A DNA stretch of 43,498 nt from Acidiphilium sp. 37-60-79. GTDB taxonomy: Bacteria; Pseudomonadota; Alphaproteobacteria; Acetobacterales; Acetobacteraceae. How positions within the stretch are numbered: the stretch's first letter is position 1; every line of letters starts with the position of its first letter. A model generated the notes under the pieces. The model saw only the letters and a program-made list of their open reading frames with translations, was not told the DNA's origin and did not search any database. Positions 3,304 to 22,663 of the stretch are shown here, one piece after another. The DNA lies in NCBI GenBank assembly GCA_002279355.1, contig NCBV01000022.1, positions 1 to 43,498 of the forward strand. The letters run 5' to 3'. Both the position numbers and the translations under genes were made by a program.

Positions 3304-3428
3304 GCCACCATCCTCTCGCAGTGCTGCTATCGCAGTTGCCCCGCTTTGGCGAGCTTGCAAATGGCGTCATTGCTATTAGGTGGATTGCAATCAACGCGAT
3401 GCAGCGTTCAACAGAAGGGAGATTTCTC

Positions 3429-4622: not shown

Positions 4623-5218
4623 AACCGCGCATAGGTAAAATTCTGCACCGCTCCGCCCGGCGTATGATGCGCATGGCGGAGCGCATCGCGCAGCGCAAAC
4701 GGCGCGCCCAATAAATCCCCCAGCATCGCCGCGTCATAACGCTGCACCGGCAATCCGCTGCACCGCTCCGGCCCATCCGGCGCAAATGTCGCCATCACCA
4801 CAAATCCCCCCGGCCGCAATGACGCCCGCAAAATCGCCAAATACCGCGCCCGATCCGCCGCCTCGGTGAGAAAATGAAAAACAGCCCGGTCATGCCACAG
4901 CGCGAACGCCGTCGTCGGCTGCCAATCGCGCGCATCCCCGGTCACCCAAGTCACCCGCTCCGCCGACGCCCCGCATGGTTCCCGGGCCAATGCCAGCGCC
5001 GTTGCCGAAACATCCAACACCGTCAGCCGCGAAAAACCCCGCTCCAGCAAACCGAGCGTCAGCCGCGACGCCCCTCCGCCAACATCCACCATCGCCGCAT
5101 CACGCGCCAACCCGCACGCCTCAATCAACCGCAACGACATCTCTGGGCTCTGCTCAAACCAACTCACCGCCCCGGCCCCATGGCGCTGATACGCGGCATC
5201 CCAATGACTCGCCGACAT
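4607..5218 (-). CDS. Class I SAM-dependent methyltransferase
   Basis: A 203-residue methyltransferase of the small Rossmann-fold type. Motif I reads VDVGGG (44-49), followed by the acidic end of beta-2 in LDVSA and a GDARDW segment that would bracket the adenine. The WHDRAVFHF and LRPGG stretches match the 'thioredoxin/TehB-like' class I methyltransferases annotated as small-molecule enzymes. The substrate cannot be inferred. It starts with ATG at 5218 and lies 31 bases downstream of trmJ on the same strand, so it is probably the last gene of the cysS-trmJ transcript. Its tail overlaps the convergent aminotransferase gene. Confidence 0.85.
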   Translation of the reverse strand: MSASHWDAAYQRHGAGAVSWFEQSPEMSLRLIEACGLARDAAMVDVGGGASRLTLGLLERGFSRLTVLDVSATALALAREPCGASAERVTWVTGDARDWQPTTAFALWHDRAVFHFLTEAADRARYLAILRASLRPGGFVVMATFAPDGPERCSGLPVQRYDAAMLGDLLGAPFALRDALRHAHHTPGGAVQNFTYARFQRIE

Positions 5219-5249
5219 TTTTCCGCTCCCCTGTTCTACGAGGTCGAGC

Positions 5250-6026
5250 CTATATCACATCGCCACGCCGCCCATGCGCCAACTCAGTGATAATTCCGTG
5301 CAATGTGCGCAATTCCTGCTCGGTCACCTCGCCGCGCTGAAAAAAATGCCGAATATTGCGCACCATCCCCGGCCGTTTCGGCGCATTGCGCAAAAACCCG
5401 GACGCATCACATTCGGCGATCAAATGGGTCAAAAAATTCTCAAGCTCACCCTTGGTTGCAACCTGGGTCTTATGCGTCATCAACCGGCGCGGCGTCGGCT
5501 CAGCCGCCGACATCCACCATTCATGCGCCATCACCATCACCGCCTGCGCCAGATTGAGCGACATGAAATCGGGGTTCAACGCATAGCGAATCAAACTATC
5601 CGCGTGCGCAATATCATCATTATCCAGCCCCGCCCGCTCCGGGCCAAACAAAATCCCCATCCGCAAACCGCGCTCACCAATCGCCCGCAACTCAACCGCC
5701 GCCCCGCGCGCCGATAATAGCGGTTTGACAATATGACGCGGACGCGGACAGGTCGCGAACACACGGTGCAAATCCGCAACCGCCTCGGCAACACTCCCAT
5801 AGATTTGTGCCGCTTCCAAAATCCGATACGCCCCGGACGCCGTGCGCATCGCCCGCTCCTGCGGCCAACCATCACGCGGCGCCACCAGCCGCAAATGAAA
5901 CAGCCCGCCATTGCCCATCGCCCGCGCCACCGAGCCGATATTCTCCGCCATTTGCGGACGCACCAAAATCACCACCGGCGATGGATCAATCGGCCGTAAA
6001 TCGGCCCCCTCATCGCGCGCCGTCAT
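5250..6026 (-). CDS. trmJ: tRNA (Nm32) 2'-O-methyltransferase TrmJ
   Basis: A 258-residue SPOUT-fold RNA methyltransferase. TrmJ methylates the 2'-O of C32/U32 in the anticodon loop of several tRNAs using S-adenosylmethionine. Visible are motif 1 (VRPQMAENIGSVARAM, about 22-37), the SAM-knot segments GILFGPERAGL and LNPDFMSLNLAQAV, and a C-terminal helical tail of about 80 residues typical of TrmJ rather than TrmL. Family length is about 245-260. The stop of cysS is only three bases upstream (TAA-tcg-ATG), so both are co-transcribed and both serve tRNA function. Confidence 0.87.
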   Translation of the reverse strand: MTARDEGADLRPIDPSPVVILVRPQMAENIGSVARAMGNGGLFHLRLVAPRDGWPQERAMRTASGAYRILEAAQIYGSVAEAVADLHRVFATCPRPRHIVKPLLSARGAAVELRAIGERGLRMGILFGPERAGLDNDDIAHADSLIRYALNPDFMSLNLAQAVMVMAHEWWMSAAEPTPRRLMTHKTQVATKGELENFLTHLIAECDASGFLRNAPKRPGMVRNIRHFFQRGEVTEQELRTLHGIITELAHGRRGDVI

Positions 6027-6029
6027 CGA

Positions 6030-7400
6030 TTATTTCCGCCTCAACGAATAGGTGCCACCCGGCCCATCTTCCAGAATCAAGCCCATATCCTCGATTTCTT
6101 GGCGCAGCCGGTCCGCCTCGGCAAAATTTTTCGCCCGCCGCGCCGCATTGCGCTGCGCGATCAGCCTATCGACCCGCTCTTGGTCAATCGCGCCAATAAA
6201 CCAATCCTTGGGATCATGGTTGAAAATGCCCAGCACGCCACCAGCAGCCTTAAGCCCCAGCGCCGCATCGCGATCGCCCGCTAACGCCGCATCGGCCAGC
6301 TGATGCAGCACCGCAATCGCCCCCGGCACATTCAAATCATCCGCGAGACACGCCAAAACCCGATCCGGCAACGGCGCCGCATCCTCAACACCCGGATGCG
6401 CCCGCAACGCCCGATAAAACCGATCCAGCTCGCGCTTGGCGTCCTGCAAGCCCGCATCGGTAAAATCGAGCAAGCTGCGATAATGCGTTTTCAAAAGCAA
6501 AAACCGCACCGCTTCCGCCGGAGCCTGCGTCAGCACATCCTGCACGGTGCGAAAATTACCCAGCGATTTCGACATTTTCTCGCCATTGACCTGCAACATC
6601 CCATTATGCAGCCAATAGCGGGCAAATTCAGCCCCCGGAAACGCGCAGCATGATTGGGCAATCTCATTCTCATGATGCGGGAACATTAAATCCGTGCCGC
6701 CGCCGTGAATATCGATGGTTTCGCCCAAATGCTTATAAATCATCGCCGAACATTCAATATGCCAGCCCGGCCGCCCACGCCCCCACGGGCTGTCCCATCC
6801 CGGCAAATCCGCCGCCGATGGCTTCCACAGCACAAAATCACCCGGATCGCGCTTATACGTCGCCACATCAACCCGCGCGCCCGCTAATAATTCATCCGGC
6901 GAGCGCCCTGAAAATTTGCCATAATCAGGGTCCGTCGCCACCGCGAACAACACATGCCCCTCCGCCGCATAGGCATGGCCAAGCCCGATCAACCGCTCAA
7001 TGATCGCGATAATATCAGGGATCGTCTCGGTCGCGCGCGGCTCGATATCCGGTGGCCGCGCATAAAGCGCCGCCATATCCCGATGAAACCACGCCGTGGT
7101 GCGCGCCGTCACCGTGCCAATCGGCACCTTCTCCTCCTGTGCGCGGGCGTTAATTTTATCATCGATATCCGTAATGTTGCGCGCATAGGTCACCTGCGGA
7201 TACAGCAACCGCAGCAGCCGCACCAGCACATCAAACACCACCACCGGTCGCGCATTACCAATATGGGCATGATCATAAACCGTCGGCCCGCACACATAGA
7301 GCGTCACATGCGCCGGATCGAGCGGCACAAATGCCCGGCGCATGCGGGTCTTGGTATCATGAAAATAGAGCGCGGTCGGCGTCATCGAAATTTCGGTCAT
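6030..7400 (-). CDS. cysS: Cysteinyl-tRNA synthetase
   Basis: A class Ia aminoacyl-tRNA synthetase of about 456 residues that charges tRNA-Cys. The HIGH-type motif is HIGN at 46-49, the KMSKS loop is at 275-279, and the zinc ligands expected for the family are present as C37, C217, H242 and E246. The anticodon-binding and DALR-type C-terminal helices follow, ending with [14 protein letters not shown]. The start is ambiguous: in-frame ATG codons lie at 7412, 7400 and 7385 and a GTG at 7424, none with a convincing Shine-Dalgarno. I took 7400. The gene is essential and full length. Confidence 0.96.
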
Positions 7401-7517
7401 TGCCGCTCGCATTTCCGCCGCCACGCCAGCCCTGTCAACTGATCGCCCCCCCAGCTATACACAGCCCGCGATAACAACAGCACGCCATTGGCGGCAACGC
7501 ATGGAGGACAAACCGGC

Positions 7518-8825
7518 ATGACGGCATTGAAGCGCAACCTTCTTTTCGTTTTGGCCGCCATCATCACCGGCCTGATTTCGATCCTGTTTGGCATCGGCGT
7601 GGTGCAGGCCAGCGCCCTGTTCGCCCACATCACCACGGGCCGCGAATGGCTAAGCTTTGTGCTTTGCCCCGCGGGCCTTGCTTTGATCGTGCTGCTGACG
7701 CGCCGGGTATTTCCTGGCGCGCAAGGCTCCGGCATCCCCCAAGCCATGGCCGGATTGAGCATGCAGCATCATGAAAATGTCGATCAAGTGCTGTCCCTGC
7801 GCATCGCTGTAGGGAAATTTTTCCTCACTTTGATGGGGTTCGCGGTCGGCGCGTCCATCGGCAAAGAAGGGCCCACCGTGCAAATCGGCTGTGCTGTGAT
7901 GAATTTCTGTGGGCGCATCGGGCTGGAGCGCACCCACGCGCTGCAACGCTTGCTCATCCTCGCGGGCGGCGCTGCCGGCATCACCTGCGCCTTCAACGCC
8001 CCCCTCGCGGGCGTGATCTTCGCAATCGAAGAAATGGCCCGCCATTTCAATGATCGGCAGTTGCGCTCGATCATTTTCGCCGCCGCCGCCAGCGGTGTGA
8101 CGCTCCTGCTGGTGCTGGGCTATCACCCTTATTTCGGCGTTTCACCCGCCAGTTTGCCCCTCGGCCCGATTTGGCTCCTGGTGCCTATTTGCGCCGTCTG
8201 CGGCGGTTTTGCCGGCGGCCTGTTCGCGCGCATCCTGATCGCACCGACGCGCCTGATGCCGCGTCCGATCAACCAACTCGCCAAATCCCAGCCGGTCGCG
8301 TTCGCCGCCCTCTGCGGCCTTGGTCTCGCCACCCTCGGCTGGCTCTCTCACGGCCAAATTTTTGGCGCCAGCTATGGCGAGGCGCGGGCCGCGCTCACCC
8401 TGGGCAAGCTCCCCCCGCTCGATTTCGCACCGCTCAAATTTTTAGCGACGTTGCTCTCCTATTTATCCGGGATTCCGGGCGGCATTTTCGCGCCATCGCT
8501 CGCGATTGGCGTCGGCGAGGGCACTTTTTTCTCCTATCTGGTGCCTGGCGTGCCCGTCGCCGCCTTCGCCATGATCGGCATGGCGGGCTATTTCGCGGGC
8601 GTGGTGCAGGCCCCCTTGACCGCGACCGTCATCGTCATCGAAATGACCAGTAACCCGGCCATGACGGTCCCCGTCACCATCGCTGCCATTCTCGGCACGA
8701 TGGCCTCACGGCTGGTCTGCAAGGAACCGGTTTATCACGCCATGGCGCAGCAATTCTTGCGCGTGATCGAGCCGCAAACCCATCACGCGCCTGCCGTTTC
8801 TCCCGGGCGCGATGGCAAAATCTGA
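7518..8825 (+). CDS. ClC-family Cl-/H+ antiporter
   Basis: A 435-residue inner-membrane ClC protein. The selectivity-filter signatures are present: GSGIP (70-74), GKEGPT (115-120; the gating glutamate is E117) and GGIFAPSL. The pair E171-E172 in AIEEM aligns with the inner proton glutamate of ClC-ec1, which points to a chloride/proton antiporter, not a channel. In enteric bacteria such proteins support extreme acid resistance, a sensible role for an acidophile. The ATG at 7518 is preceded by GGAGG at 7503-7507, so I prefer it to the upstream in-frame ATG at 7488. The last 43 bases overlap the convergent FAD oxidoreductase gene. Confidence 0.92.
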   Translation: MTALKRNLLFVLAAIITGLISILFGIGVVQASALFAHITTGREWLSFVLCPAGLALIVLLTRRVFPGAQGSGIPQAMAGLSMQHHENVDQVLSLRIAVGKFFLTLMGFAVGASIGKEGPTVQIGCAVMNFCGRIGLERTHALQRLLILAGGAAGITCAFNAPLAGVIFAIEEMARHFNDRQLRSIIFAAAASGVTLLLVLGYHPYFGVSPASLPLGPIWLLVPICAVCGGFAGGLFARILIAPTRLMPRPINQLAKSQPVAFAALCGLGLATLGWLSHGQIFGASYGEARAALTLGKLPPLDFAPLKFLATLLSYLSGIPGGIFAPSLAIGVGEGTFFSYLVPGVPVAAFAMIGMAGYFAGVVQAPLTATVIVIEMTSNPAMTVPVTIAAILGTMASRLVCKEPVYHAMAQQFLRVIEPQTHHAPAVSPGRDGKI

Positions 8826-9967
8826 TAGCGGCGCATGAACCGCCGATCGATCCAATCCTTCCAGCGCCACATCAATCGCCCCTCCATCGTCCAGCCGCCC
8901 CGACTGGCCACCGCATAGCGATCGCCGGTGCTCAGCAACGCCAACGCCTCATTCTGCGGCTGGAAATAACGCATCGTCCCGCCGGTGAAGCTGCTGCGCA
9001 AATTTTCTGCTAACGGCGGCCCCTGGCGCACGGCAAACACCCCGGACTTCGGGCGCGGCGCACCGATCACGCTGGCCACATCACCGGCGGCAAAAATCGT
9101 CGAGTGCGAGAGCGATTGCAGCGCCAAATTGACCGCGATGAACCCGTGCTGATCAAGCGTAATCCCCGCCTCGCGCAGCCAGGGCGGCGCGCCCGCCTCG
9201 GTCACGAACAGCATTTCATCAACCGGATAGTCGCGCCCATCGGCACAGCGCAACAGCCCCGGCTCCGCCGCGATAACCACCGCATTACTATGCACGATTA
9301 TCCCGCGCGCGCGCAAAATCCGCTCAAACCGGGCCTGCACCCCGGGCGCATAGCCAGCCAATACCCGATCTGAGCGGCCAAACAGTGACAGCGTGACCAT
9401 CGCCGGGTCACGCCCCGCAGCCATCAGCAATTGGTGCAGCCCATATTGCACCGCGAGCACCATCTCGATGCCGCCCGCCCCCGTGCCAATCACCCCAATC
9501 CGCACCGGTCCCTGCGCCGCGAGCACCCGCTCCACCAGCTCGTGCCAATAAACCAGAAAACCGTTAATCGGCTTGACCGGCACGCCGACCTTTTCAGCCC
9601 CCGGTATCCCAGCCAGATTGGGCGATGATCCAATATTGATCGATAATATATCATAGGAAATCAACGGGCCCGTCGCACAGCGCACAACCCGCCGGTCTGG
9701 ATCCAGCCCCACCACCCGATCCTCAATAAAATGCGCCCCGGCAAAGTCGCAAAGCGGTTTGAGATCAATATGTGCATCGGCAAAATCATAATGCCCCGCA
9801 ACAACCCCCGGCAGCATCCCCGAATAAGGGGTAAACCGATCCCGCCCGATCAAGGTCACCCGCACAGTCTCCGACCGCGCCAAGCCCAAGCGGCGCAGCA
9901 CCTCGACATGGCTGTGGCCGCCGCCCACCAGCACCAAATGTTTTTGCGGAGGTCCGCCTCGATCCAT
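8783..9967 (-). CDS. FAD-dependent pyridine-nucleotide oxidoreductase, 'N-terminal-to-SelD' type
   Basis: A 394-residue NDH-2-like flavoprotein. The FAD Rossmann motif LVLVGGGHSHVEVLRR is at 11-26, a second dinucleotide fold starts at VRIGVIGTGAGG, and an AAGDVAS motif near the C-terminus binds the flavin ribityl chain. GGGHSH with a following PYSGMLPG segment is characteristic of the family that in many bacteria is fused to the N-terminus of selenide-water dikinase. Here the protein ends with the DWIDRRFMRRYQ segment that would join SelD, and SelD is absent. ATG at 9967 gives the best fit to the family start; the same frame also offers ATG at 10009 and GTG at 10021. Its 3' end overlaps the ClC gene by 43 bases. 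Confidence 0.83.
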   Translation of the reverse strand: MDRGGPPQKHLVLVGGGHSHVEVLRRLGLARSETVRVTLIGRDRFTPYSGMLPGVVAGHYDFADAHIDLKPLCDFAGAHFIEDRVVGLDPDRRVVRCATGPLISYDILSINIGSSPNLAGIPGAEKVGVPVKPINGFLVYWHELVERVLAAQGPVRIGVIGTGAGGIEMVLAVQYGLHQLLMAAGRDPAMVTLSLFGRSDRVLAGYAPGVQARFERILRARGIIVHSNAVVIAAEPGLLRCADGRDYPVDEMLFVTEAGAPPWLREAGITLDQHGFIAVNLALQSLSHSTIFAAGDVASVIGAPRPKSGVFAVRQGPPLAENLRSSFTGGTMRYFQPQNEALALLSTGDRYAVASRGGWTMEGRLMWRWKDWIDRRFMRRYQILPSRPGETAGA

Positions 9968-10221
9968 CACAGTCCCAATCAGGCTTAACCGCCGGTCAAA
10001 TCGCCGCATCGCATTCGACACGATGCGCCCCTATGAATGTTATTCTAGCTCCATTAGCGTTATGTCACACCGAAAAGCAAACCGCCTAACCGCAAACGCT
10101 CCTGACGCCCCTCCATCCGGGTGATGCAATTATTTGATCGATCCCGATGTAACCAAATCGCTCCTGCCGGCGTAATGCTACAGCATGTTCATCCGTTCGC
10201 CCCACCAATGTGAGAGAAGAA

Positions 10222-11619
10222 ATGGCCACACCAACCGAAACGCCGCGCGCTGATCACGACCTGCTCGATATTCTCTCCAATCTGCGCTGGAACCGGTTTC
10301 ACACCGCGATCGTGTTGCTATTCGGCCTCGGCTGGGCGCTCGATGCGTTCGAGGTCACCCTGATGGGCAATGTGCTGGGTGCGCTGCGCCAGCATTTTCA
10401 CCTCGGCAGCAACGCCATGTCCTTCATTCTCGCTGCCTGGTTCGTCGGCCTGATGATCGGCGCCGCCGGCTTTGGCATCCTGGCCGACCGCTATGGTCGG
10501 CGGCGGGTATTTCTCGCCAGCCTCATCCTATACGGTCTCGCCACCCTCGCCACCGCCTTCGCCCCCAACCTCGCCGCCCTGCTTATACTCCGCCTGATCG
10601 CAGGCATCGGCGTTGGCGCTGAATATTCTGCGATCAACGCCGCCATCGCCGAATTGGTGCCCAGCCGGTCGCGCGGTCGCGCCGCCGCCATCGTGCTGAA
10701 TTTCTGGCCCATCGGCAGCTTCGTCGCCGCCCTGCTCGCATGGCTCGCGCTCTCGGCCCTGCCCGCCGATATCGGCTGGCGCATGGTGTTTGGCTTGGGC
10801 GGCCTGATCGCCCTCTCCGCCGCATGGTTTCGCCGCCATTTGCCCGAAAGCCCACGCTGGCTCCTCGATGCCGGACGCCCCGATGACGCCAGAGCGATCA
10901 TCGCCGGTATCCAAGCCGGCCTGACCAATATCCGCCCACCCGCCGCCACCCCGATCAGCCATCGGGTGCGCCGCGAAGCCAGTAGCATCATCCGCCTGCT
11001 GCGCCTCTATCCCGGTCGCCTCGCCCTCGGCGCTGCGCTCGATTTCGCCGAGGCCTCTGGCTATTACGGGCTGTTCGCCTTTCTCCCCATCGTGGTGCTA
11101 CCCGCCTTGCATCTACCGCCCGCCCGCCTGCCGATCTTTTATCTCGCCGGCAGCGTCGGCGCCCTCATCGGCGGTCTCGCCGCCGCCTTCCTGCTTGAGC
11201 GTCTTGGCCGCAGCTGGACCGTCGGGCTCTTCTATCTCGCCACCGCCCTCAGCCTGGTCGGCTTCGCCGCCTCCGTCCATCTCGGCGCGGGCGCGATCAT
11301 GCTTGGCTTTGCCGGTGTGAACATGCTCGCGACCGGCAGTTGGATCGCGGCCTACCCCACCTTCTCCGAGCTGTTCCCCACCGCCCTGCGCGCCACGGGC
11401 ATCGGCGCTTCCGTCGCCATCGGGCGCATCGGCGCCGCCTTGTCACCCTTCCTGGTCGGCTATGTCGGTGCGCGCAGCATGCCGGCCGCCTTGCTCATGC
11501 TCGCTGGATTCTGGGCCATCGGCGCGCTCGCCATCCTGATCTGGCGCCGCCAAGGTGGGGTGGAAGCGCGTGGCCTCTCGCTCGAACAGCTCAGCGCTGA
11601 GCCCCTCGCCAATGTTTGA
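10222..11619 (+). CDS. MFS transporter (sugar-porter/aromatic-acid symporter-like)
   Basis: A 465-residue twelve-helix major-facilitator protein. The loop 2-3 signature GILADRYGRRRVF, a PSRSRGRAAA turn after helix 4, and LPESPRWLL after helix 6 place it among sugar-porter/AAHS-like metabolite:H+ symporters. A DAFEVTLMG segment in helix 1 resembles the acidic residue used by carboxylate transporters. I chose the ATG at 10222, with AGAGAAG immediately upstream; a GTG at 10210 is the alternative. The stop overlaps the start of the next gene by eight bases, so it heads the five-gene radical-SAM operon and is probably its importer or exporter. The substrate is unknown. Confidence 0.9.
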   Translation: MATPTETPRADHDLLDILSNLRWNRFHTAIVLLFGLGWALDAFEVTLMGNVLGALRQHFHLGSNAMSFILAAWFVGLMIGAAGFGILADRYGRRRVFLASLILYGLATLATAFAPNLAALLILRLIAGIGVGAEYSAINAAIAELVPSRSRGRAAAIVLNFWPIGSFVAALLAWLALSALPADIGWRMVFGLGGLIALSAAWFRRHLPESPRWLLDAGRPDDARAIIAGIQAGLTNIRPPAATPISHRVRREASSIIRLLRLYPGRLALGAALDFAEASGYYGLFAFLPIVVLPALHLPPARLPIFYLAGSVGALIGGLAAAFLLERLGRSWTVGLFYLATALSLVGFAASVHLGAGAIMLGFAGVNMLATGSWIAAYPTFSELFPTALRATGIGASVAIGRIGAALSPFLVGYVGARSMPAALLMLAGFWAIGALAILIWRRQGGVEARGLSLEQLSAEPLANV

Positions 11620-13393
11620 CGCCATCATCCACGCCACACCGCCGGTGCATCACGCGGACGCACCCGTGCTGATTTTTGGCGGCAATTACAGCAATCTGCA
11701 GGCAACGACCGCCCTGCTCGCCGCGGCCGCCCGCCACCGCATCGACCCCGCTCACATCATCTGCACCGGCGATATCATCGCCTATGGCGCGGACCCGCAA
11801 GCCTGTGTCGATCTCATCCGCACGCACGGCATCTCCACCATCATGGGCAATTGCGAAGAACAGCTCGCCGCCGACGCGCTTGATTGCGGCTGTGGTTTCA
11901 CACCGGGCTCCGCCTGCGATATGCTCGCAAATAGCTGGTTCAGCTATGCCCGTCGCCATCTCGATGATGATGCCAGAAGCTGGATGCAAACCCTGCCGCG
12001 CCGGATCGATCTGCATATTGGCGGTAAGCGCTTGGCCATTATTCATGGCGCCCCCAGCCGGATCAATCGGTTCCTCTTCGCCTCCGATCCCGATGACATT
12101 TTCGCGCCTGAAATCGCCCAAACCGGCTGCGACGGCGTGATCGCAGGCCATAGCGGCCTCGGCTTCACCCGCATGATCGGCACACAAATCTGGCATAATG
12201 CCGGCGCCATCGGCCTGCCTGCCAATGACGGCTCGCCGCGCGGCTGGTACTCGGTGCTCACTCCCAAATCCGACGGGTTGATCATCACCACCCACCCGCT
12301 CGATTATGACCACCGCGCCGCCGCCGCCGCCATGCGCCGCGCCGAACTCCCCCCCGATTACGCCGATGCCATCGAGACCGGCATTTGGCCCAATCTCGAT
12401 ATTCTGCCCCTGCCCGAACGCGCCGCCACCGCACAGCCGCAAACCCCGCAAACCATCCATCTACCCGCTCAAGCGCCCGCGCCTGATCCGCGTCCCGCCC
12501 CCCCAACACATTATGCCCGCATCGCCCTCGAACGGCTGGAAACGCTCTGGTTCAATACCGGCACATTATGCAACCTCGCTTGCGATGGCTGTTATATCGA
12601 AAGCAGCCCGCGCAACGACCGGCTGGCCTATCTCGCGCACGCCGAATTCACCCGGATCATCGATGAAGCCCGCGCCACCCAGCCCGCCTTGCGCGCAATC
12701 GGCTTCACCGGCGGCGAACCCTTCATGAACCCCGCCATCATCCCGATGCTGGACGAAGCCCTGACCCATGGCTACCGCACCCTGGTTTTGACCAACGCCA
12801 TGCGTCCCATGCAGCGCCATTTTCCCATCCTGCAACGCCTGCGCGCCACCCATGGCAGCCAGCTCGCGCTCCGCGTCTCGCTCGATCATTTCACCCAAGT
12901 CGGCCACGACGCCCTGCGCGGCGCGCAAGCATGGCAGCCAGCCCTCACCGGCCTGAAATCCCTGTTCGATGCCGGTTTCGCACCAACCATCGCCGCCCGG
13001 TTCAATCCAGCGCATGAAACCGAAGCGGACACCCGCACAGGCTTCGCCGCCTTATTCGCGGCCCAAGCTTGGCCCATCGATGCCCACAACCCGGATCATC
13101 TCGTGCTATTCCCCGAAATGAGCACCCCAAATCCCATCCAAGGCGTCAGCGCCGCCGCCTGGGCCGCGCTCGCCCCGCGCGGCGCCGATGCCATGTGCCG
13201 GACATCGCGGATGGTGGTGCAACGCAAAGGCGAATCGCAGGCCAGTTTGGTCGCCTGCACCCTACTCCCCTACACGCCGCGCTTTGACCTTGGCCCAACC
13301 CTCGCCGGCGCCACCAGCCCGGTCACGCTCGATCACCCGCATTGCGCCCGGTTTTGCGTATTCGGCGCCTCATCATGCATGACCGCACGATGA
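11612..13393 (+). CDS. Metallophosphoesterase-like/radical SAM fusion protein
   Basis: A 593-residue two-domain protein. Residues of about 10-240 form a calcineurin-like phosphoesterase fold with CTGDIIAYG, IMGNCEEQ, IIHGAPSR and AGHSG motifs. The first metal motif (DxH in active enzymes) is replaced by GGNYSN, and the GHxH motif is reduced to GHSG. A Pro/Ala-rich linker (about 265-305) leads to a radical-SAM domain with CxxxCxxC at C320, C324 and C327 (LCNLACDGCYIE) and GFTGGEPF. Five more cysteines (529, 549, 578, 582, 589) near the C-terminus could hold an auxiliary Fe-S cluster, as in SPASM/twitch enzymes. The start ATG overlaps the MFS stop by eight bases. Substrate unknown; neighbours suggest a step in making a glycosylated small molecule or lipid. 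Confidence 0.87.
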   Translation: MFDAIIHATPPVHHADAPVLIFGGNYSNLQATTALLAAAARHRIDPAHIICTGDIIAYGADPQACVDLIRTHGISTIMGNCEEQLAADALDCGCGFTPGSACDMLANSWFSYARRHLDDDARSWMQTLPRRIDLHIGGKRLAIIHGAPSRINRFLFASDPDDIFAPEIAQTGCDGVIAGHSGLGFTRMIGTQIWHNAGAIGLPANDGSPRGWYSVLTPKSDGLIITTHPLDYDHRAAAAAMRRAELPPDYADAIETGIWPNLDILPLPERAATAQPQTPQTIHLPAQAPAPDPRPAPPTHYARIALERLETLWFNTGTLCNLACDGCYIESSPRNDRLAYLAHAEFTRIIDEARATQPALRAIGFTGGEPFMNPAIIPMLDEALTHGYRTLVLTNAMRPMQRHFPILQRLRATHGSQLALRVSLDHFTQVGHDALRGAQAWQPALTGLKSLFDAGFAPTIAARFNPAHETEADTRTGFAALFAAQAWPIDAHNPDHLVLFPEMSTPNPIQGVSAAAWAALAPRGADAMCRTSRMVVQRKGESQASLVACTLLPYTPRFDLGPTLAGATSPVTLDHPHCARFCVFGASSCMTAR

Positions 13394-15498
13394 GCACCAC
13401 CACCCACCGCCCCGCGAGCCTTGCCCGCCTGTTCCTGTTCGGCGCGCTGATCGTGCTCGTCATCGCCATCGCCGCGCATCTGGGCGGCCACACCCTCACC
13501 CTCGAAGCCCTGCAACAGCACGCCGCCTCCCTGCGCCGCACCATCGCCACCCACCCGATCATCAGTGCTGCGGTCTATTTCGCGCTCTATATCGCCGCCA
13601 CCGCACTGTCAGTCCCCGGTGCGATTATCCTCACAATCGGCGCGGGCGCCCTGTTTGGTGTCATTGAAGGCAGCATCCTGGTCTCATTCGCCTCCTCCAT
13701 CGGCGCCAGCCTCGCTTTTCTCACCGCCCGCTTCCTGCTCCGCGACATGGCGCTCGGGCGTTTCCCCGGCCTATTCGCCCGCATCGATCAAGGGATCGCC
13801 CGCGATGGCGCGCTTTATCTCATCTCGCTCCGTCTCGCCCCGGTGGTGCCGTTCGTCGCGGTCAATCTGCTGGCCGGTCTCACCAAATTATCGCTCCGCC
13901 GCTTTTATCTCGCGAGCCAGATCGGCATGCTCCCCGCCACCCTGATCTATGTCAACGCCGGTGCCGGCCTCGCCACGCTGGGCCGGCACGGCGCAATCCT
14001 CACCCCCCGCTTGATCATCGGCCTGCTGCTCCTCGCCGCCTTGCCAATGATCGCCCCGCGCCTGCGTGACCTGTTCATCGCCCGCCGCGCCTATGCGGGC
14101 TTCACCCGCCCGAAACATTTCGATCGCAATCTCATCGTCATCGGCGCCGGCGCCGCCGGTTTGGTGAGCGCCTATGTCGCCAGCGCCGTGCGCGCCAAAG
14201 TCACCTTGATCGAAGCCGCGCGCATGGGCGGCGATTGCCTCAATACCGGCTGCGTCCCCTCCAAAGCCCTGCTCCACGCCGCCCGCCACGGCGCTGATTT
14301 TTCCGCCGCCCGCGCAGCGGTGCACGCCGCCATCACCGGCATCGCCCCGCATGATTCCGTCGCGCGCTATCAATCGCTCGGCGTCGATGTGCGCATCGGC
14401 CACGCCATGATCGAAACGCCCTGGAGCGTCACCATCAACGGCGAAACCCTCACCACCCGCGCCATCGTCATCGCCGCTGGCGCCGAACCCTTCGTGCCCG
14501 CCCTGCCCGGCCTCGCCGATAGCCCGTTCGCCACCTCGGAAACCCTCTGGGACATCGAGGCTCTGCCCGCCCGCCTCGTCATCCTCGGCGGCGGGCCGAT
14601 CGGCTGCGAAATGGCGCAAGCCTTCGCCCGCCTCGGCAGCCACGTCACCCTGGTCGAAATGGCCGACCGCTTGATGCTGCGCGAGGATGATGCGGTCTCC
14701 GCCGCCATGGTGACACGCCTCACCCGCGACGGCGTGACGATCCGCACCGCCCACCGCGCCATCGCCGTGCAGCACGACGCCGATGGCTATAGCCTGCGCG
14801 CCGAGCATGACGGTGCGGCAACCATCATCCCATTTGATCGCCTCCTGGTCGCAATCGGCCGCAAGCCGCGGGTCACTGGCTATGGGTTGGAAGCGCTGGG
14901 CGTAAAGCTGGCCAAATCCGGCATCATCGAAACCGGCGAGACCCTGCAAACAAGCTTCCCCAATATCTTTGCCTGTGGCGATGTCTCCGGCCCCTACCAA
15001 CTCACCCATGTCGCCGGCTTTCAAGGCGGTTTCGCCGCCCTGAACGCGTTATTCGCTCCGCTCTGGCGCTTCAAGCCAAGCTATCGCGCGGTTCCCGCCG
15101 TCACCTATACCAGCCCCGAAATCGCCCGCGTCGGCCTCAATGAGCGCGAGGCCAAAGCACAAAACCTCGCCTACGAGCTCACACACTATGATTTTGCCGA
15201 ACTCGACCGCGCCATCGCCGAAGGCGATACCGAAGGCTTCATCACCGTGCTCACCCGCAAAGGCTCGGACCAGATCCTCGGCGCCACCATCGTCGGCACC
15301 CAGGCCGGTGAACTGCTCTCCAGCTTTACCCTCGCAATGCAAAACAAACTCGGCCTGAAAAAACTCATGAGCGCAATCTACCCCTACCCAACCCGCAGTG
15401 AAGCAATCCGCGCGATTGCCGGCCAATGGCGCCAAAATCATACATCGCCGCGCAGCCTCGCCATCCTCGAACGGTTCCATCGCTGGCGGCGCGGATGA
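13390..15498 (+). CDS. VTT (TVP38/TMEM64) membrane domain fused to mercuric-reductase-like flavoprotein
   Basis: A 702-residue fusion. Residues of about 10-235 are a VTT/SNARE-associated membrane domain with the conserved GAGALFG...GASLAF segment and a LAPVVPFVAVN re-entrant loop. Residues of about 245-702 form a class I pyridine-nucleotide disulfide oxidoreductase: FAD motif IVIGAGAAGLV, redox pair C283-C288 in GGDCLNTGCVPSK, NAD(P) motif VILGGGPIGCE, and FACGDVSG. At the position of the usual HxHPT base the sequence has YPYPT (Y664), as in MerA-like enzymes, so lipoamide- or glutathione-type chemistry is unlikely. ATG overlaps the preceding stop (ATGA). The fusion tethers a thiol redox centre to the membrane; such fusions occur near TIGR04282/TIGR04283 glycosyltransferase genes. 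Confidence 0.9.
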   Translation: MSTTTHRPASLARLFLFGALIVLVIAIAAHLGGHTLTLEALQQHAASLRRTIATHPIISAAVYFALYIAATALSVPGAIILTIGAGALFGVIEGSILVSFASSIGASLAFLTARFLLRDMALGRFPGLFARIDQGIARDGALYLISLRLAPVVPFVAVNLLAGLTKLSLRRFYLASQIGMLPATLIYVNAGAGLATLGRHGAILTPRLIIGLLLLAALPMIAPRLRDLFIARRAYAGFTRPKHFDRNLIVIGAGAAGLVSAYVASAVRAKVTLIEAARMGGDCLNTGCVPSKALLHAARHGADFSAARAAVHAAITGIAPHDSVARYQSLGVDVRIGHAMIETPWSVTINGETLTTRAIVIAAGAEPFVPALPGLADSPFATSETLWDIEALPARLVILGGGPIGCEMAQAFARLGSHVTLVEMADRLMLREDDAVSAAMVTRLTRDGVTIRTAHRAIAVQHDADGYSLRAEHDGAATIIPFDRLLVAIGRKPRVTGYGLEALGVKLAKSGIIETGETLQTSFPNIFACGDVSGPYQLTHVAGFQGGFAALNALFAPLWRFKPSYRAVPAVTYTSPEIARVGLNEREAKAQNLAYELTHYDFAELDRAIAEGDTEGFITVLTRKGSDQILGATIVGTQAGELLSSFTLAMQNKLGLKKLMSAIYPYPTRSEAIRAIAGQWRQNHTSPRSLAILERFHRWRRG

Positions 15499-16196
15499 AC
15501 CCATCGCCGCCCCTCACCATCATCATCCCGACACTGAACGAAGCCGACCATCTCCCCGCCTTGCTCGCCACCCTCACCGCCGCCCGCGAACCGCTCACCA
15601 TCATCATCAGCGATGGCGGCAGCCACGATGCCACCCTGCTGATCGCCCAAAAGGCTGGCGCTCACCTCATCAAAGGCCCACCCGGACGCGGCTTGCAGCT
15701 CCAGCGCGGCATCGACCATGCTCAAACCATCCACTCAACCGGCTGGTTTTTGCTCCTCCATGCCGATACCGCGCTGCCGCCTGACTGGCTCACCGCGCTG
15801 CACCCCGCCTTCGCCCATCCGCAGCGCGCCCATTATGGCCGCCTGCGCTTTGCCAGCGCCGATCCCCGCGCCCGCCTGTTCGAAGCGGGGGTACGGCTGC
15901 GCTGCGCCCTGTTCGCGCTGCCTTATGGCGATCAATCCTTGCTCATCCATCAATCCCTGCTCACCGTCATCGGCGGCATCCCGCCTTTGCCGCTGATGGA
16001 AGATGTCGCCCTCGCCCGCCGCCTCGGTCGCCACCGCCTCGCCCCGCTCGATCTACTCGTCACCACCGACGCTAGCGCCTATATCCGCGATGGCTGGTTT
16101 CGCCGCGCCGCCCAAAACCTCACCCGCCTCGCCCAATTCACCCTGACCCATGCCACCCCACGCGCCACCCCACGCGCCGCCTCCTACCGCCGATGA
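15495..16196 (+). CDS. Family 2 glycosyltransferase (TIGR04283-like)
   Basis: A 233-residue GT-A glycosyltransferase. The N-terminal LTIIIPTLNEADHL strand, the ISDGGSHDAT nucleotide-binding loop, the LLHADTALP metal-binding segment and the PLMEDVALARRL acceptor helix are the usual order of a short GT2 enzyme. The pattern of GRGLQLQRG after the DGGS motif matches the TIGR04283 set that NCBI labels arsenosugar-biosynthesis glycosyltransferases. It has no membrane helices. It starts in ATGA overlap with the previous stop and ends in ATGA overlap with the DUF2064 gene. The sugar donor and the acceptor are unknown; the family name does not prove an arsenic substrate. Confidence 0.89.
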   Translation: MNPSPPLTIIIPTLNEADHLPALLATLTAAREPLTIIISDGGSHDATLLIAQKAGAHLIKGPPGRGLQLQRGIDHAQTIHSTGWFLLLHADTALPPDWLTALHPAFAHPQRAHYGRLRFASADPRARLFEAGVRLRCALFALPYGDQSLLIHQSLLTVIGGIPPLPLMEDVALARRLGRHRLAPLDLLVTTDASAYIRDGWFRRAAQNLTRLAQFTLTHATPRATPRAASYRR

Positions 16197-16750
16197 GCCG
16201 CCCGGTCATCATCCTCTTCACCCGCATCCCCCGGCTCGGCGTCGGCAAGCGGCGCCTCGCCCGCCAAATCGGTGATCGTGCCGCCCTCACTTTGTCGCGC
16301 ACCCTGCTGCAAAACCTCCTGCACCGCCTGCGCCCGCTGCGCGGCGTCACCCGCCTCATCGCCGCCACGCCCGATCACCATGCCAAATTCCACGCCCCCG
16401 GCTGGACCCTCATCCCCCAAGGCGGCGGCGATCTCGGCGCGCGGATGCAGCGCGCCATCGCCCGCTTCCCGCGCCGCCCGGTGGTGCTGATCGGCAGCGA
16501 TATCCCGGGAATTACCGGCGCCGACCTGCGCACCGCCTTGCATCTGCTGCGTGGCCATCACGCGGTGTTCGGCCCCGCCACCGATGGCGGCTATTGGCTC
16601 ATCGGCCAATCAGCGCGCCGCCCGGCAACCCCGTTCGCCAACACACGCTGGTCCAGCGCCCACACATTGGCCGACACGCGCCGCAATTTTCCTCGCCGCC
16701 GGATCGCGCTACTCCGCCCCCTCGCCGATATCGACGAGGCACCGCCCTAA
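16193..16750 (+). CDS. DUF2064 (TIGR04282-like) nucleotidyl/glycosyltransferase-fold protein
   Basis: A 185-residue protein of the DUF2064 family, a compact GT-A/nucleotidyltransferase fold. Visible are an N-terminal strand VIILFTRIPRLGVGKRRLA (the dinucleotide/phosphate loop with the KxRLA pattern), the QGGGDLGARM segment, VLIGSDIPGI with the metal-binding aspartate, and ATDGGYWLIG. It regularly sits beside TIGR04283 glycosyltransferases and may activate or transfer a sugar in the same pathway. The start overlaps the upstream stop (ATGA). It is the last gene of this block; 41 bases then separate it from the OxyR-like gene, with a weak ACCCG/CGGGT inverted repeat in between. Confidence 0.88.
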   Translation: MSRPVIILFTRIPRLGVGKRRLARQIGDRAALTLSRTLLQNLLHRLRPLRGVTRLIAATPDHHAKFHAPGWTLIPQGGGDLGARMQRAIARFPRRPVVLIGSDIPGITGADLRTALHLLRGHHAVFGPATDGGYWLIGQSARRPATPFANTRWSSAHTLADTRRNFPRRRIALLRPLADIDEAPP

Positions 16751-16791: not shown

Positions 16792-17817
16792 ATGCCGCCC
16801 AACAAACCGCCAAACCCCCCACCCAGCGGAACGCCCCGCACCGATCATCCCCGCTCGCTCGCCGGCCTGTCGTTGCGCGATCTCGAATATGCCCAAGCCG
16901 TCGCCGCCCTGCGCCATTTTGGCCGCGCCGCCGAACGCTGCGGCGTCTCCCAGCCCGCTCTGTCCGAGCAAATCCGCAAGCTCGAAGCCATTCTCGGCAC
17001 ACCGCTCTTCGAGCGCACCAAACGCCGCGTCGCCCCCACCCCAACTGGCGAAGCCCTGCTCGCCCAAATCGAACGGGTCATGCTCGAGGCCCGCCATTTG
17101 CTCACCCTATCGCACGGCCCGCATAATGGCGTCTCGGGCGATATCGCGCTCGGCGCCATCGAAACGCTCGGCCCCTATTATCTCCCCGGCCTGCTCCGCC
17201 TGCTGCGCATCGAACGCCCCGATCTGTCGTTGCGCCTCACCGAAGGCCGCACCGCCCGCTTGGTCGATCGCCTGCTCGATGGCTCGCTCGATCTGTTGCT
17301 CCTCGCGTTGCCGGTGCCGCGCCCCGGCCTGATCGCTGCCCCATTATTCTTCGAGCGTTTCCTGCTCGCCACCCCGCCCGGCCACGCGCTTGCCTCATTG
17401 CCCATGCTCTCGCTCGATGAATTGCCCGCCGATGACCTCCTGCTCCTCGAAGAAGGCCATTGCCTGCGCGATCAAGCGCTGAGCCTGTGCGATGCCAAGC
17501 CGGTGACCCGCCACGCCACCAGCCTCGAAACCTTATGGCAAATGATCGCCGCCGGCGAAGGCTATTCGCTCCTGCCCGCCCTCGCCGTCGCAGCTCGCCC
17601 CGAATTGCAGGAGCTCATCCTTTGCCGCCCCCTCAATGATGCCGCCGCCGGTCGGGAAATCGGCCTCGTTTGGCGCCGCTCGGACCCGCGCACCCCCAGC
17701 TTTCGCACCCTCGCCGCCCTGCTCGCCGCACAACGCCCCGCGGCCACCGATTCGGCTCCTACCGCGCTGCCCGATTCCGCCAATCGATCACCCGAACGCC
17801 GCCAGCCCCGCCGATGA
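16792..17817 (+). CDS. oxyR: OxyR-like LysR-family redox regulator
   Basis: A 341-residue LysR-type regulator. The winged-helix domain (about 27-90) contains the recognition segment CGVSQPALSEQIRKLE, followed by the effector domain. GHCLRDQAL with C224 and C233 reproduces the peroxide-sensing cysteine pair of E. coli OxyR (C199 and C208), including the nine-residue spacing. An N-terminal Pro-rich stretch of about 25 residues and a C-terminal polar tail of about 30 are longer than usual. Its stop overlaps the start of the DUF374 gene (ATGA), an unusual position: oxyR normally stands beside katG or ahpC. It may control the preceding redox-enzyme operon, the lipid A genes, or distant peroxide genes. 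Confidence 0.87.
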   Translation: MPPNKPPNPPPSGTPRTDHPRSLAGLSLRDLEYAQAVAALRHFGRAAERCGVSQPALSEQIRKLEAILGTPLFERTKRRVAPTPTGEALLAQIERVMLEARHLLTLSHGPHNGVSGDIALGAIETLGPYYLPGLLRLLRIERPDLSLRLTEGRTARLVDRLLDGSLDLLLLALPVPRPGLIAAPLFFERFLLATPPGHALASLPMLSLDELPADDLLLLEEGHCLRDQALSLCDAKPVTRHATSLETLWQMIAAGEGYSLLPALAVAARPELQELILCRPLNDAAAGREIGLVWRRSDPRTPSFRTLAALLAAQRPAATDSAPTALPDSANRSPERRQPRR

Positions 17818-20700: not shown

Positions 20701-21599
20701 ATTTTCAACAAAAACTCGAAAATTTCGGTGCCCGCCTCGCCCTCGCTCTGTTCGCCGCCCTCAGCCCGGCTGCCGCAAGCGCTTTGGGCGGGGCGATCAC
20801 CCGCACCATCGGCCCCTTTTTGCCGGTCTCGCGCGTCGCAGACCGCAATCTGCAAGCCGCAATGCCCGAACTCGACTCCAGCGCCCGCAGCACCATCATC
20901 CGCGCCGTCTGGGATAATCTGGGCCGCACCATCGGCGAACTGCCCCATCTCGCCCGCCTCGATTTCACCGATTCTGGCCCTGGTTTCGAATTGATCGGCG
21001 GCGAGCATCTCACCGCCTTGGCCGAGGGCCCGGCGATCTTTTTCTCCGCCCATTTCGGCAATTGGGAAGCCTTTCCGCCCATCGCCGCCCGCGCGGGCAT
21101 CCTCGCCTCCTCGGTCTATCGCGCTGCGGCCAATCCGGGCGTCGATGCGCTGATCCTCTCGCTGCGCCGCGCCGGTGTGCGCGCTGACATCCCAATGTTC
21201 CCCAAAGGTGCGAGCGGGGCGCGCGCCGCCTACGCCCATCTCGCGCGGGGTGGCCGCCTCGGCATGGTGGTCGATCAAAAACTCAATGATGGCATCGAAG
21301 CCCGCTTGTTCGGCCTGCCCGCCATGACCGCCTCCGCCGCCGCCGCCTTCGCGCTGAAATTTCGCTGCCCCCTGATCCCCGGCCGCGTTGATCGGATCGG
21401 CCCCGCCCGTCTGCGTTTGACCATTGAGCCGCCGCTCGATCTGCCATCGCCCGGCGAACGCCAGGCCGATATCGCCGCCCTCACCCAAACCATCAATGAT
21501 CGGCTCGAAGCCTGGATCCGCCAATCCCCCGGCGCCTGGCTCTGGTTGCATCGCCGCTGGCCACGCGACATCATCACCCCAACAGGAGCAAAATCATGA
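20697..21599 (+). CDS. Lipid A late acyltransferase (LpxL/HtrB family)
   Basis: A 300-residue membrane-anchored acyltransferase that adds a secondary acyl chain to Kdo-lipid A. A hydrophobic N-terminal segment (about 12-35) is followed by FSAHFGNWE, whose histidine and glutamate form the HX4E catalytic dyad, and by MVVDQKLNDGIEARLFG, a conserved acceptor-site segment. The position, directly after lpxK, fits. Whether lauroyl, myristoyl or another chain is used cannot be read from the sequence. Start in ATGA overlap with lpxK, stop in ATGA overlap with the dehydrogenase gene. Confidence 0.9.
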   Translation: MNFQQKLENFGARLALALFAALSPAAASALGGAITRTIGPFLPVSRVADRNLQAAMPELDSSARSTIIRAVWDNLGRTIGELPHLARLDFTDSGPGFELIGGEHLTALAEGPAIFFSAHFGNWEAFPPIAARAGILASSVYRAAANPGVDALILSLRRAGVRADIPMFPKGASGARAAYAHLARGGRLGMVVDQKLNDGIEARLFGLPAMTASAAAAFALKFRCPLIPGRVDRIGPARLRLTIEPPLDLPSPGERQADIAALTQTINDRLEAWIRQSPGAWLWLHRRWPRDIITPTGAKS

Positions 21600-22663
21600 G
21601 TAAAACCTACCGGATCGCCGTTATCGAAGGCGATGGTATCGGGCGCGAAGTCGTCCCCGCCGCCATCACCGTGCTCGATCAAGTCGCCGCCGCCAGCGGC
21701 TTTTCGCTCCACTATCATCATTTCGATTGGAGCTGCGAGACCTTCAAATCCACCGGCAAAATGATGCCCGAGGATGGGTTGCGCCAACTTGCCGATTTCG
21801 ATGCGATCTATCTCGGCGCCGTCGGCTATCCCGGCGTGCCGGACCATATTTCCCTCTGGGGCCTGCTGATCCCAATCCGCCGCAGCTTTGACCAATATGT
21901 CAATCTCCGCCCGGTGCGCTTGCTGCCGGGCGTGCCCTGCCCGCTTGCGGGCAAAAAACCCGGCGATATTGATTTCTGGGTGGTGCGCGAAAATGTCGAA
22001 GGCGAATATTCCCAAGTCGGCGGGCGCATGTTCGCGGGCACCGAGCGCGAATTCGTCGAGCAAACCAGCATTTTCACCCGCTTTGGCACCGATCGCATCC
22101 TGCGCTACGCCTATGACCTCGCCCGCCGCCTCGGCCGCCCGCATGTCACCTCCGCGACCAAATCCAACGGTATTTTCCACACCATGCCGTTCTGGGATGA
22201 GCGGGTTGCGGCAATCAGCGCCGATTATCCCGAAATCCGCACCGATCAATACCATATCGATATTCTCGCTGCCCGTTTCGTGATGTCCCCCGAACGGTTC
22301 GACGTGGTGGTCGGCTCCAATTTGTTCGGCGATATTCTCTCCGATCTCGGCCCCGGCGTCACCGGCACCATCGCCGTCGCCCCCTCCGCCAATTTGAATC
22401 CGGAACGAAAATTCCCCTCAATGTTCGAGCCGGTGCATGGTTCCGCGCCGGATATTGCCGGCCAAAACATCGCCAACCCGGTCGGCACCATCTGGGCCGG
22501 CGCGATGATGCTGGAGCATTTGGGCGAAACCGAAGCCGCCGCCCGGATCATGCACGCCATCGAAACCGCGCTGGGCGATCAAGTCACCCCGAAAACCCCC
22601 GATCTCGGCGGCACCGCGCACACCGCCGATCTCACCGCCGCGATCAGGGCGCTGTGCGGGTAA
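21596..22663 (+). CDS. ttuC: Tartrate dehydrogenase / D-malate dehydrogenase (decarboxylating)
   Basis: A 355-residue NAD-dependent beta-decarboxylating dehydrogenase of the isocitrate/isopropylmalate family. It matches TtuC/DmlA closely: DHISLWGLLIP replaces the isopropylmalate-specific helix, and DQYVNLRPVRLLPG, VRENVEGEY, TSATKSNG, VVVGSNLFGDILSDL and FEPVHGSAPDIAG follow in order. The lysine of ATKSN and the aspartates of NLFGDILSD form the metal/substrate site. AACAGGAGC lies before the start, which also overlaps the acyltransferase stop (ATGA). A metabolic enzyme at the end of a lipid A operon is odd; it may be co-transcribed by chance. The 3' end overlaps the convergent GNAT gene by 20 bases. 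Confidence 0.9.
   Translation: MSKTYRIAVIEGDGIGREVVPAAITVLDQVAAASGFSLHYHHFDWSCETFKSTGKMMPEDGLRQLADFDAIYLGAVGYPGVPDHISLWGLLIPIRRSFDQYVNLRPVRLLPGVPCPLAGKKPGDIDFWVVRENVEGEYSQVGGRMFAGTEREFVEQTSIFTRFGTDRILRYAYDLARRLGRPHVTSATKSNGIFHTMPFWDERVAAISADYPEIRTDQYHIDILAARFVMSPERFDVVVGSNLFGDILSDLGPGVTGTIAVAPSANLNPERKFPSMFEPVHGSAPDIAGQNIANPVGTIWAGAMMLEHLGETEAAARIMHAIETALGDQVTPKTPDLGGTAHTADLTAAIRALCG

Follow-up and report, generated by a model that had tools for sequence, protein, structure and literature searches.

A five-gene Acidiphilium operon with a phosphoesterase-like/radical-SAM fusion as a possible ArsM-independent arsenosugar-type pathway

The window analysed here was the whole 43,498-nucleotide contig NCBV01000022.1 (G000:C87) of Acidiphilium sp. 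37-60-79 (assembly GCA_002279355.1), which belongs to a 3.07 Mb genome that is 96% complete. It was found to contain a five-gene operon on the + strand (10222..16750). We read this operon, with confidence that is evenly divided, as an arsenosugar-type pathway that would be independent of ArsM, would use an alternative to the radical S-adenosylmethionine (radical-SAM) enzyme ArsS and would be fed by an imported, likely methylated, arsenical.

The first gene encodes a major facilitator superfamily (MFS) transporter, the proposed importer (10222..11619; PF07690/PF00083 by domain and NCBIfam profiles), followed by the presence of a gene (11612..13393) in which domain profiles found Metallophos_2 fused to Radical_SAM. 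The N-terminal half of the fusion (11612..12439) was assigned by a domain profile and alignments to a remodelled metallophosphoesterase-like domain, and the C-terminal half (12485..13393) by a domain profile and cysteine motifs to a radical-SAM domain, the proposed ArsS counterpart. The third gene (13390..15498) was found to encode a VTT membrane domain fused to a flavin disulphide reductase (Pyr_redox_2/Pyr_redox_dim) with the GGDCLNTGCVPSK motif, followed by genes for a TIGR04283-type family 2 glycosyltransferase (GT2; 15495..16196) and a TIGR04282/DUF2064 protein that is CofC/MobA-like by family (16193..16750). The glycosyltransferase matched TIGR04283 over positions 1-210 of 221 with 168.8 bits, under the cut-off of 182, and the DUF2064 protein matched TIGR04282 with 153.4 bits, above the cut-off of 134. 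All five open reading frames (ORFs) contained an ATG start and one stop, and they reproduced the overlaps of 8, 4, 4 and 4 bases described in an earlier note on this DNA; alternative longer starts were present for the second and third genes, and the overlaps are valid for the chosen starts. The domain calls of that note also stood for MFS, Radical_SAM, VTT, GT2 and DUF2064, whereas the phosphoesterase was found not to be an ordinary one, with half of the usual metal ligands missing.

The radical-SAM half was found to contain the CxxxCxxC motif (Cys 320, 324 and 327 of the fusion protein) and five further cysteines (529, 549, 578, 582 and 589). Towards the C terminus, five cysteines in a comparable order were common to this radical-SAM family and to ArsS, which was reportedly characterised by Cheng et al. 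in 2021, and a profile comparison of the two families (hhalign) gave 98.1% with an E-value of 6.7e-14 over 146 columns. The window gene also keeps the TIGR04283 and TIGR04282 genomic company of ArsS. By these comparisons the radical-SAM half is a distant relative of ArsS, and an ArsS-type adenosyl transfer to arsenic is predicted for it. The earlier note had stated that ArsM and a canonical ArsS are missing and that the radical-SAM protein has a different architecture, and all of this held: the protein is a fusion far under the TIGR04167 cut-off, the best TIGR04167 match across the whole window genome reached 60 bits, and ArsM was not found in this 96% complete genome with profile A2 at E<=1e-30. 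The reading as a standard arsenosugar operon, with its ArsM or ArsS encoded at another site of the genome, was thus set aside. The Rv1681 system was also rejected; the Rv1681 family (NF049973) was the best NCBIfam match of the domain yet a partial one (96 bits, cut-off 380), and the substrate-binding proteins (SBPs) linked to the phosphoesterase-like gene in some relatives scored 22-29 bits on the Rv1680 model (cut-off 400).

The radical-SAM family (profile A1, the radical-SAM half) was found in 43 of 397 Pseudomonadota genomes. TIGR04283 (E<=1e-20) accompanied it in 42 of the 43, against 10 of 37 controls, of which five were ArsS genomes and three contained weak matches. In 33 of the 42 genomes the glycosyltransferase gene lay on a different contig from the radical-SAM gene or was separated from it by more than 10 kb, so the co-occurrence is not mere linkage. 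Among 200 Acetobacteraceae genomes, TIGR04283 was present in 84 of the 85 that matched the fusion and in 18 of the 115 others (Fisher 6e-37). ArsS above the cut-off was found in none of the 43 radical-SAM genomes and in five of the 37 controls (p 0.018), and all five of these also contained TIGR04283; in one genome (G240, L153) the ArsS, TIGR04283-type and TIGR04282-type genes were adjacent. Because ArsS is absent from all 43 genomes and yet both enzymes accompany TIGR04283, the radical-SAM family and ArsS behave, judged by their distribution, as alternatives with the same partner. The earlier note would have been refuted if the genes did not co-occur outside close relatives, or if homologues of the fusion always sat with arsM and arsS, and neither was the case; the pairing with TIGR04283 was found far beyond close relatives, and ArsM was found in only 18 of the 43 genomes.

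The ArsM genes themselves were found in the neighbourhood of several radical-SAM genes. Eight ArsM proteins were encoded less than 4 kb from a radical-SAM gene (L051, L091, L092, L095, L109, L126, L127 and L129), with residues 7-332 of the 351 in the L109 protein matching arsenite methyltransferases of solved structure (5evj, E 1.5e-101), and cysteines at aligned positions 25, 53, 148 and 198 were conserved in all eight. At full length, ArsM was found in 18 of the 43 radical-SAM genomes and in none of the 37 controls, three of which contained weaker partial matches (profile A2, E<=1e-30 in the phylum set and a stricter 1e-50 in the Acetobacteraceae). Five of the 200 Acetobacteraceae genomes contained ArsM, three of them radical-SAM positive, with both genes in the same cluster in G086 and G132. 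Methylthioadenosine (MTA) phosphorylase genes were present near the radical-SAM gene in six loci (L044, L095, L100, L109, L127 and L129).

A cluster with a canonical ArsS was found in one genus of another family (loci L189/L190, genomes G698 and G600), with 439 and 446 bits, respectively, against the cut-off of 300. One stretch contained a TIGR04282-like gene, a VTT-flavoprotein gene, ArsS and MTA-phosphorylase-like and TIGR04283-like genes, along with a phosphoesterase-like gene on the other strand, genes for an HtxB-like SBP, a permease and an ATPase, and a TIGR03169-like gene; in G698 the TIGR03169, TIGR04282/83 and MTA-phosphorylase matches were under the curated cut-offs. ArsM was not found in these genomes. 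The gene content of the cluster is similar to that of the window operon, except that ArsS replaces the radical-SAM half and an ATP-binding cassette (ABC) importer the MFS gene. Because of this ArsS cluster and of ArsM within 4 kb in eight loci, the operon would probably serve the same pathway with ArsS replaced; the earlier note was right to relate the genes to the arsenosugar set, and the separate system it had proposed is not favoured.

In the phosphoesterase-like half, DxH was found to be changed to GxY, GNH to GNC and GHxH to GHxG, with the presence of CGCGF...C cysteines. The domain belongs by profile to the calcineurin-like metallophosphoesterases (Metallophos_2); compared with the solved relatives 3rqz and 3qfm, SDxH was replaced by GGxY (Ala instead of Tyr in L047) whereas GD, GN, H and GH were kept. 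The DxH motif and the last His of GHxH were missing in all of the 40, 9 and 11 aligned sequences, the set of 40 including three duplicate pairs. GNC was conserved in the 40- and 9-sequence sets, GNV was found in two ArsS-cluster proteins of the set of 11, and CGCGF with a third cysteine was present in all 11 proteins compared. The lost residues (D to G, H to Y and the last H to G) we take to be metal site 1, and the retained D, N, H and H site 2. The complete two-metal set (DxH, GD, GNH, H, GHxH) was not found in the window domain and, because the residues of site 1 are lost, a standard two-metal hydrolysis by this domain is unlikely. As a guess, the thiols of the cysteines might bind a trivalent arsenical. 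No literature on this phosphoesterase-like family or on the radical-SAM family was found among open-licence PMC papers.

The phosphoesterase-like profile (A3) was found in eight of the 397 Pseudomonadota genomes, all eight radical-SAM positive (1e-8 by chance), and in 19 of 289 genomes of a class-level draw. In nine of these 19 (including the window genome) the radical-SAM gene was fused to it or lay next to it, three (G265, G281 and G500) contained it elsewhere in the genome, two (G600 and G698) were those with the ArsS cluster, and five (G649, G655, G732, G808 and G815) lay outside the radical-SAM search. None of the 200 Acetobacteraceae genomes contained the phosphoesterase-like half without the radical-SAM half. 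None of 42 genomes known to contain both genes had ArsM, against 21 of the 84 in which only the radical-SAM gene was present (p 9e-5 pooled, 0.013 in the phylum set; the claim rests on the 43-genome and 85-genome sets). The data fit a single downstream pathway that receives methylated arsenic either made by the cell itself or taken up from outside.

The 85 Acetobacteraceae matches to the fusion comprised 22 genomes with a full-length fusion (twice in G182), two assemblies with the gene in two pieces (G093:C235 and G183:C108), 12 genomes with both halves as separate genes and 49 with the radical-SAM half only (the match of G057 starts at residue 182). Among 25 intact fusion loci of 24 genomes, with three duplicate locus copies dropped, the MFS gene was found directly 5' of the fusion in 21, with the identical 8-base overlap in 16 of the 21, and the VTT-flavoprotein gene directly 3' in seven. 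The full five-gene order is a minority form, and the partner genes were mostly scattered in other genomes; versions of the operon were also present in Acidiphilium rubrum and A. iwatense. Genes were listed with a custom ORF caller, which overlooked some of them, the phosphoesterase-like gene of several stretches included, and tblastn was used alongside. Four-base overlaps are common in GC-rich, tightly packed genomes, and the five genes might be neighbours by chance in such a genome; this explanation is barely credible, because the order and overlaps of the MFS, fusion and VTT genes recur across several genera and the unlinked partners co-occur, and the one functional unit of the earlier note was borne out. 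In a FastTree phylogeny of 84 radical-SAM domains, 25 Acetobacteraceae-type fusions grouped as a single clade with a support of 0.994. Fusion L182 was placed elsewhere, and three non-fused sequences fell within the smallest clade that joins all 26 fusions. In other alphaproteobacterial families the two halves were found as adjacent genes in reversed order, radical-SAM first (L185, L186, L188, L191, L192, L193 and L195). Because of L182 and of this reversed order, the linkage of the two halves probably arose more than once.

For the MFS gene, the best NCBIfam match was TIGR00895 with 203.8 bits, far under the cut-off of 418.55. Where the two halves are separate genes in the Acetobacteraceae (11 of 12 genomes fetched), PhnD- and PhnE-like genes of an HtxB-like importer were found beside the phosphoesterase-like gene in 10 of 11 loci. 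No ABC importer genes were seen in the examined stretches of the 25 fusion loci; because of this, and of the upstream MFS gene in 21 of them, the MFS gene most likely takes the place of the HtxB-like importer. A search of plasmids for the radical-SAM family gave 14 records. Twelve of these matched only in part, with mycofactocin maturase as the annotation of five, and the informative match was the cluster of Roseomonas haemaphysalidis p546-1 (L172), whose SBP was nearest to HtxB (E 2.7e-72) with PhnD, PtxB and AioX much weaker. The 13 linked SBPs that were retrieved (E<=1e-30) were all found to keep Trp52, Arg178 and Asp206 of the hypophosphite ABC transporter HtxBCDE (SBP HtxB, 5me4), followed by the presence of Ser128, His158 and Tyr/Phe176 (N128S, F158H and M176Y/F against HtxB); the W52, S128, H158 and Y/F176 set was thus found in the relatives' proteins and not in the window genes, which include the MFS gene instead. 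Dimethylarsenate (DMA) and monomethylarsenate (MMA), oxyanions of similar shape, could be the cargo, for which the one line of support is Pelagibacter, where DMA is oxidised and the phnD gene is up about two-fold on DMA according to the available excerpt of PMC6426599.

Several findings weigh against the arsenic pathway proposed here. The radical-SAM half scored 58.2 bits on the ArsS model (TIGR04167, cut-off 300), and the hhalign alignment to ArsS was limited to the N-terminal half of the radical-SAM family. The genes of the window operon are linked to a known arsenic function through their family names only, and no experimental paper on TIGR04282/83 was found in the open-licence PMC literature. 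By tblastn, 28 of 40 radical-SAM stretches of the phylum draw contained no VTT, flavoprotein, TIGR04283-type, DUF2064 or DUF547 gene nearby, and at least one was present in only 12. The Fisher tests ignore phylogeny. The exclusion of ArsM was not significant in the Acetobacteraceae alone (0/36 vs 3/49, p 0.26), and the class-level test (0/15 vs 0/60 control alphaproteobacteria) carries no weight for a class-wide rule of exclusion, since none of the 60 controls contained ArsM either. Seventeen of the 43 radical-SAM genomes contained neither ArsM nor the phosphoesterase-like gene, which leaves their substrate supply unexplained. Outside the Acetobacteraceae, the importer was found beside the phosphoesterase-like gene in two of 21 loci (L101 and L181-L200), and these two (L189 and L190) are from one genus. 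The Ser128, His158 and Tyr/Phe176 signature marks HtxB-like proteins whose pocket is larger, and phosphite is their proposed ligand in the excerpt of PMC6629693; HtxB itself is reported to bind hypophosphite and gave no binding with methylphosphonate.

These binding proteins bear on the main rival, in which phosphite or another reduced phosphorus oxyanion would be imported and the radical-SAM enzyme would make a C-P bond, so that the product would be the phosphonate or phosphinate counterpart of an arsenosugar. The closeness of the linked SBPs to HtxB, a pocket predicted for phosphite and the 25 of 43 radical-SAM genomes without ArsM (profile A2) are in its favour; the canonical ArsS of the similar L189/L190 cluster and the eight loci with true ArsM less than 4 kb from the radical-SAM gene are not, and P-H oxyanions contain no free lone pair comparable to that of trivalent arsenic. 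We consider phosphorus unlikely as the element handled.

Mercuric reductase MerA (TIGR02053) was rejected as an identity for the VTT-flavoprotein, which scored 327.4 bits against a cut-off of 454.45; MerA carries a C-terminal Cys pair, and the dimerisation domain of the VTT-flavoprotein (P0002) was found to contain no cysteine, hence the pair is absent. Divergent from the operon, a TIGR03169 pyridine nucleotide-disulphide oxidoreductase gene (8783..10021, - strand; 444.9 bits, cut-off 310) may be an extra operon-associated member. Its relatives, of 30-78% identity, were present in L038, L039, L040, L045, L068, L100, L155, L189 (216.5 bits, under the cut-off) and L190, and they recur near TIGR04283-type clusters. 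In L155 (G248, 3182-9846), VTT-flavoprotein, TIGR04282-type, TIGR04283-type and TIGR03169-like genes were found together; ArsS and the radical-SAM family were both not found in the G248 genome and, because the partner set is present without either, a third radical-SAM type may exist.

In the Roseomonas cluster a second radical-SAM gene (L172, 5550-6929) was found, nearest to TrsS and the tetraether synthase Tes and under the cut-offs. It shares the cluster with TIGR04282, DUF547, the HtxB-like transporter and the phosphoesterase-like gene, and the cluster adjoins a divergent set of chalcone isomerase-like, MauE, DUF547, FAD and VTT genes. A different adenosylated and glycosylated product, lipid- or hopanoid-like or a selenium compound, which would share only accessory genes with the arsenosugar set, could draw on this likeness to TrsS and Tes, on the VTT domain, which suggests membranes, and on HpnH, which transfers an adenosyl group to hopene; the name TIGR03169 derives from a fusion to SelD. 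A selenium pathway on account of the TIGR03169 neighbour was not kept as a separate candidate, and was retained within this rival. Such a product is distinctly unlikely given the genomic context of ArsM and ArsS and the absence of ArsS from the 43 genomes, which is expected of alternatives in one pathway.

For the arsenic pathway, we infer the chemical steps, the identity of the substrate and the direction of transport as follows. The MFS protein, or the HtxB-like ABC importer in some relatives, would take up a tetrahedral oxyanion of small size, for which DMA, MMA or a similar methylated arsenical from other organisms is the most likely candidate. Thiols for its reduction to the trivalent form would come from the flavin disulphide reductase on its VTT anchor, with possible help from the TIGR03169 flavoprotein. 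The phosphoesterase-like domain would bind the trivalent form, possibly via the three invariant cysteines, and pass it to the fused radical-SAM domain. This domain would join the 5'-deoxyadenosyl group of SAM to arsenic in an ArsS-like manner, followed by removal of adenine by an MTA-phosphorylase-type enzyme, encoded near some relatives and not in the window operon, and the TIGR04282 and TIGR04283 proteins would finish the sugar transfer.

In comparison with ArsM-ArsS arsenosugar biosynthesis, the window thus shares the TIGR04283 and TIGR04282 partners and a distantly ArsS-like radical-SAM enzyme with five C-terminal cysteines, with ArsM nearby in some relatives, whereas it contains the extra phosphoesterase-like domain, transporter, VTT-flavoprotein and perhaps the TIGR03169 protein. 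The arsinothricin pathway ArsQML contains a radical-SAM enzyme acting on arsenic and a transporter, as proposed here, whereas it has ArsM, and TIGR04282/83 genes are not named in its cluster in the available excerpt of PMC8552651; it was not among the best NCBIfam matches of the window genes. The interpretation of the earlier note is, in sum, partly supported.

Two alphaproteobacterial genomes of 1.2-1.3 Mb (G500 and G808; 28-32% GC in the stretches read) were found to contain the phosphoesterase-like gene (L197, L198 and L121), and G500 also contained a radical-SAM gene and a weak TIGR04283 match; judged by size and GC alone, they may be SAR11-like. They bear on a further rival, in which methylated arsenicals would be broken down by demethylation for energy or detoxification and no arsenosugar would be made, as does the DMA oxidation of Pelagibacter, the enzymes of which are not yet established in the excerpt of PMC6426599. 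The glycosyltransferase, the nucleotidyltransferase-like protein and the ArsS of L189/L190 indicate synthesis, and the SAR11 identity of the two genomes is itself only presumed; breakdown is very unlikely.

Other neighbours of the radical-SAM genes were also recorded. Twelve loci of family f12 (L098, L101-L108, L110, L112 and L115) contained the radical-SAM gene in divergent orientation to genes for glucose-6-phosphate dehydrogenase, 6-phosphogluconolactonase and phosphoglucose isomerase, and a NAD-binding, thioester-reductase-like gene was found near TIGR04283-type and radical-SAM genes in L091, L092, L094 and L095, three of which also contained ArsM. The plasmid pHP-187 of Marinobacter adhaerens contained a two-piece radical-SAM family match (L171, 9001-9826) with no listed gene under it. 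In the window, the operon was followed by a LysR gene nearest to OxyR and under the OxyR cut-off (16792-17817), then by lipid A genes (lpxK, KDO transferase and a lauroyl acyltransferase-like gene), adjoined by a tartrate dehydrogenase gene (21596-22663).

The widespread radical-SAM family is likely a second ArsS, some HtxB-like binding proteins would serve a pathway outside phosphorus nutrition, and a phosphoesterase fold is described with one metal site lost and a conserved set of cysteines. A broader and rather doubtful extension is organoarsenical salvage, in which bacteria without ArsM (Acidiphilium and possibly SAR11-like plankton) would import methylated arsenic of other organisms through an HtxB-like or MFS carrier, capture it on a three-cysteine former phosphoesterase that has lost site 1 and make arsenosugar-type products with the alternative ArsS. 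If true, bacteria without ArsM could join the organoarsenic cycle by using methylated arsenic from other organisms, which can now be tested.

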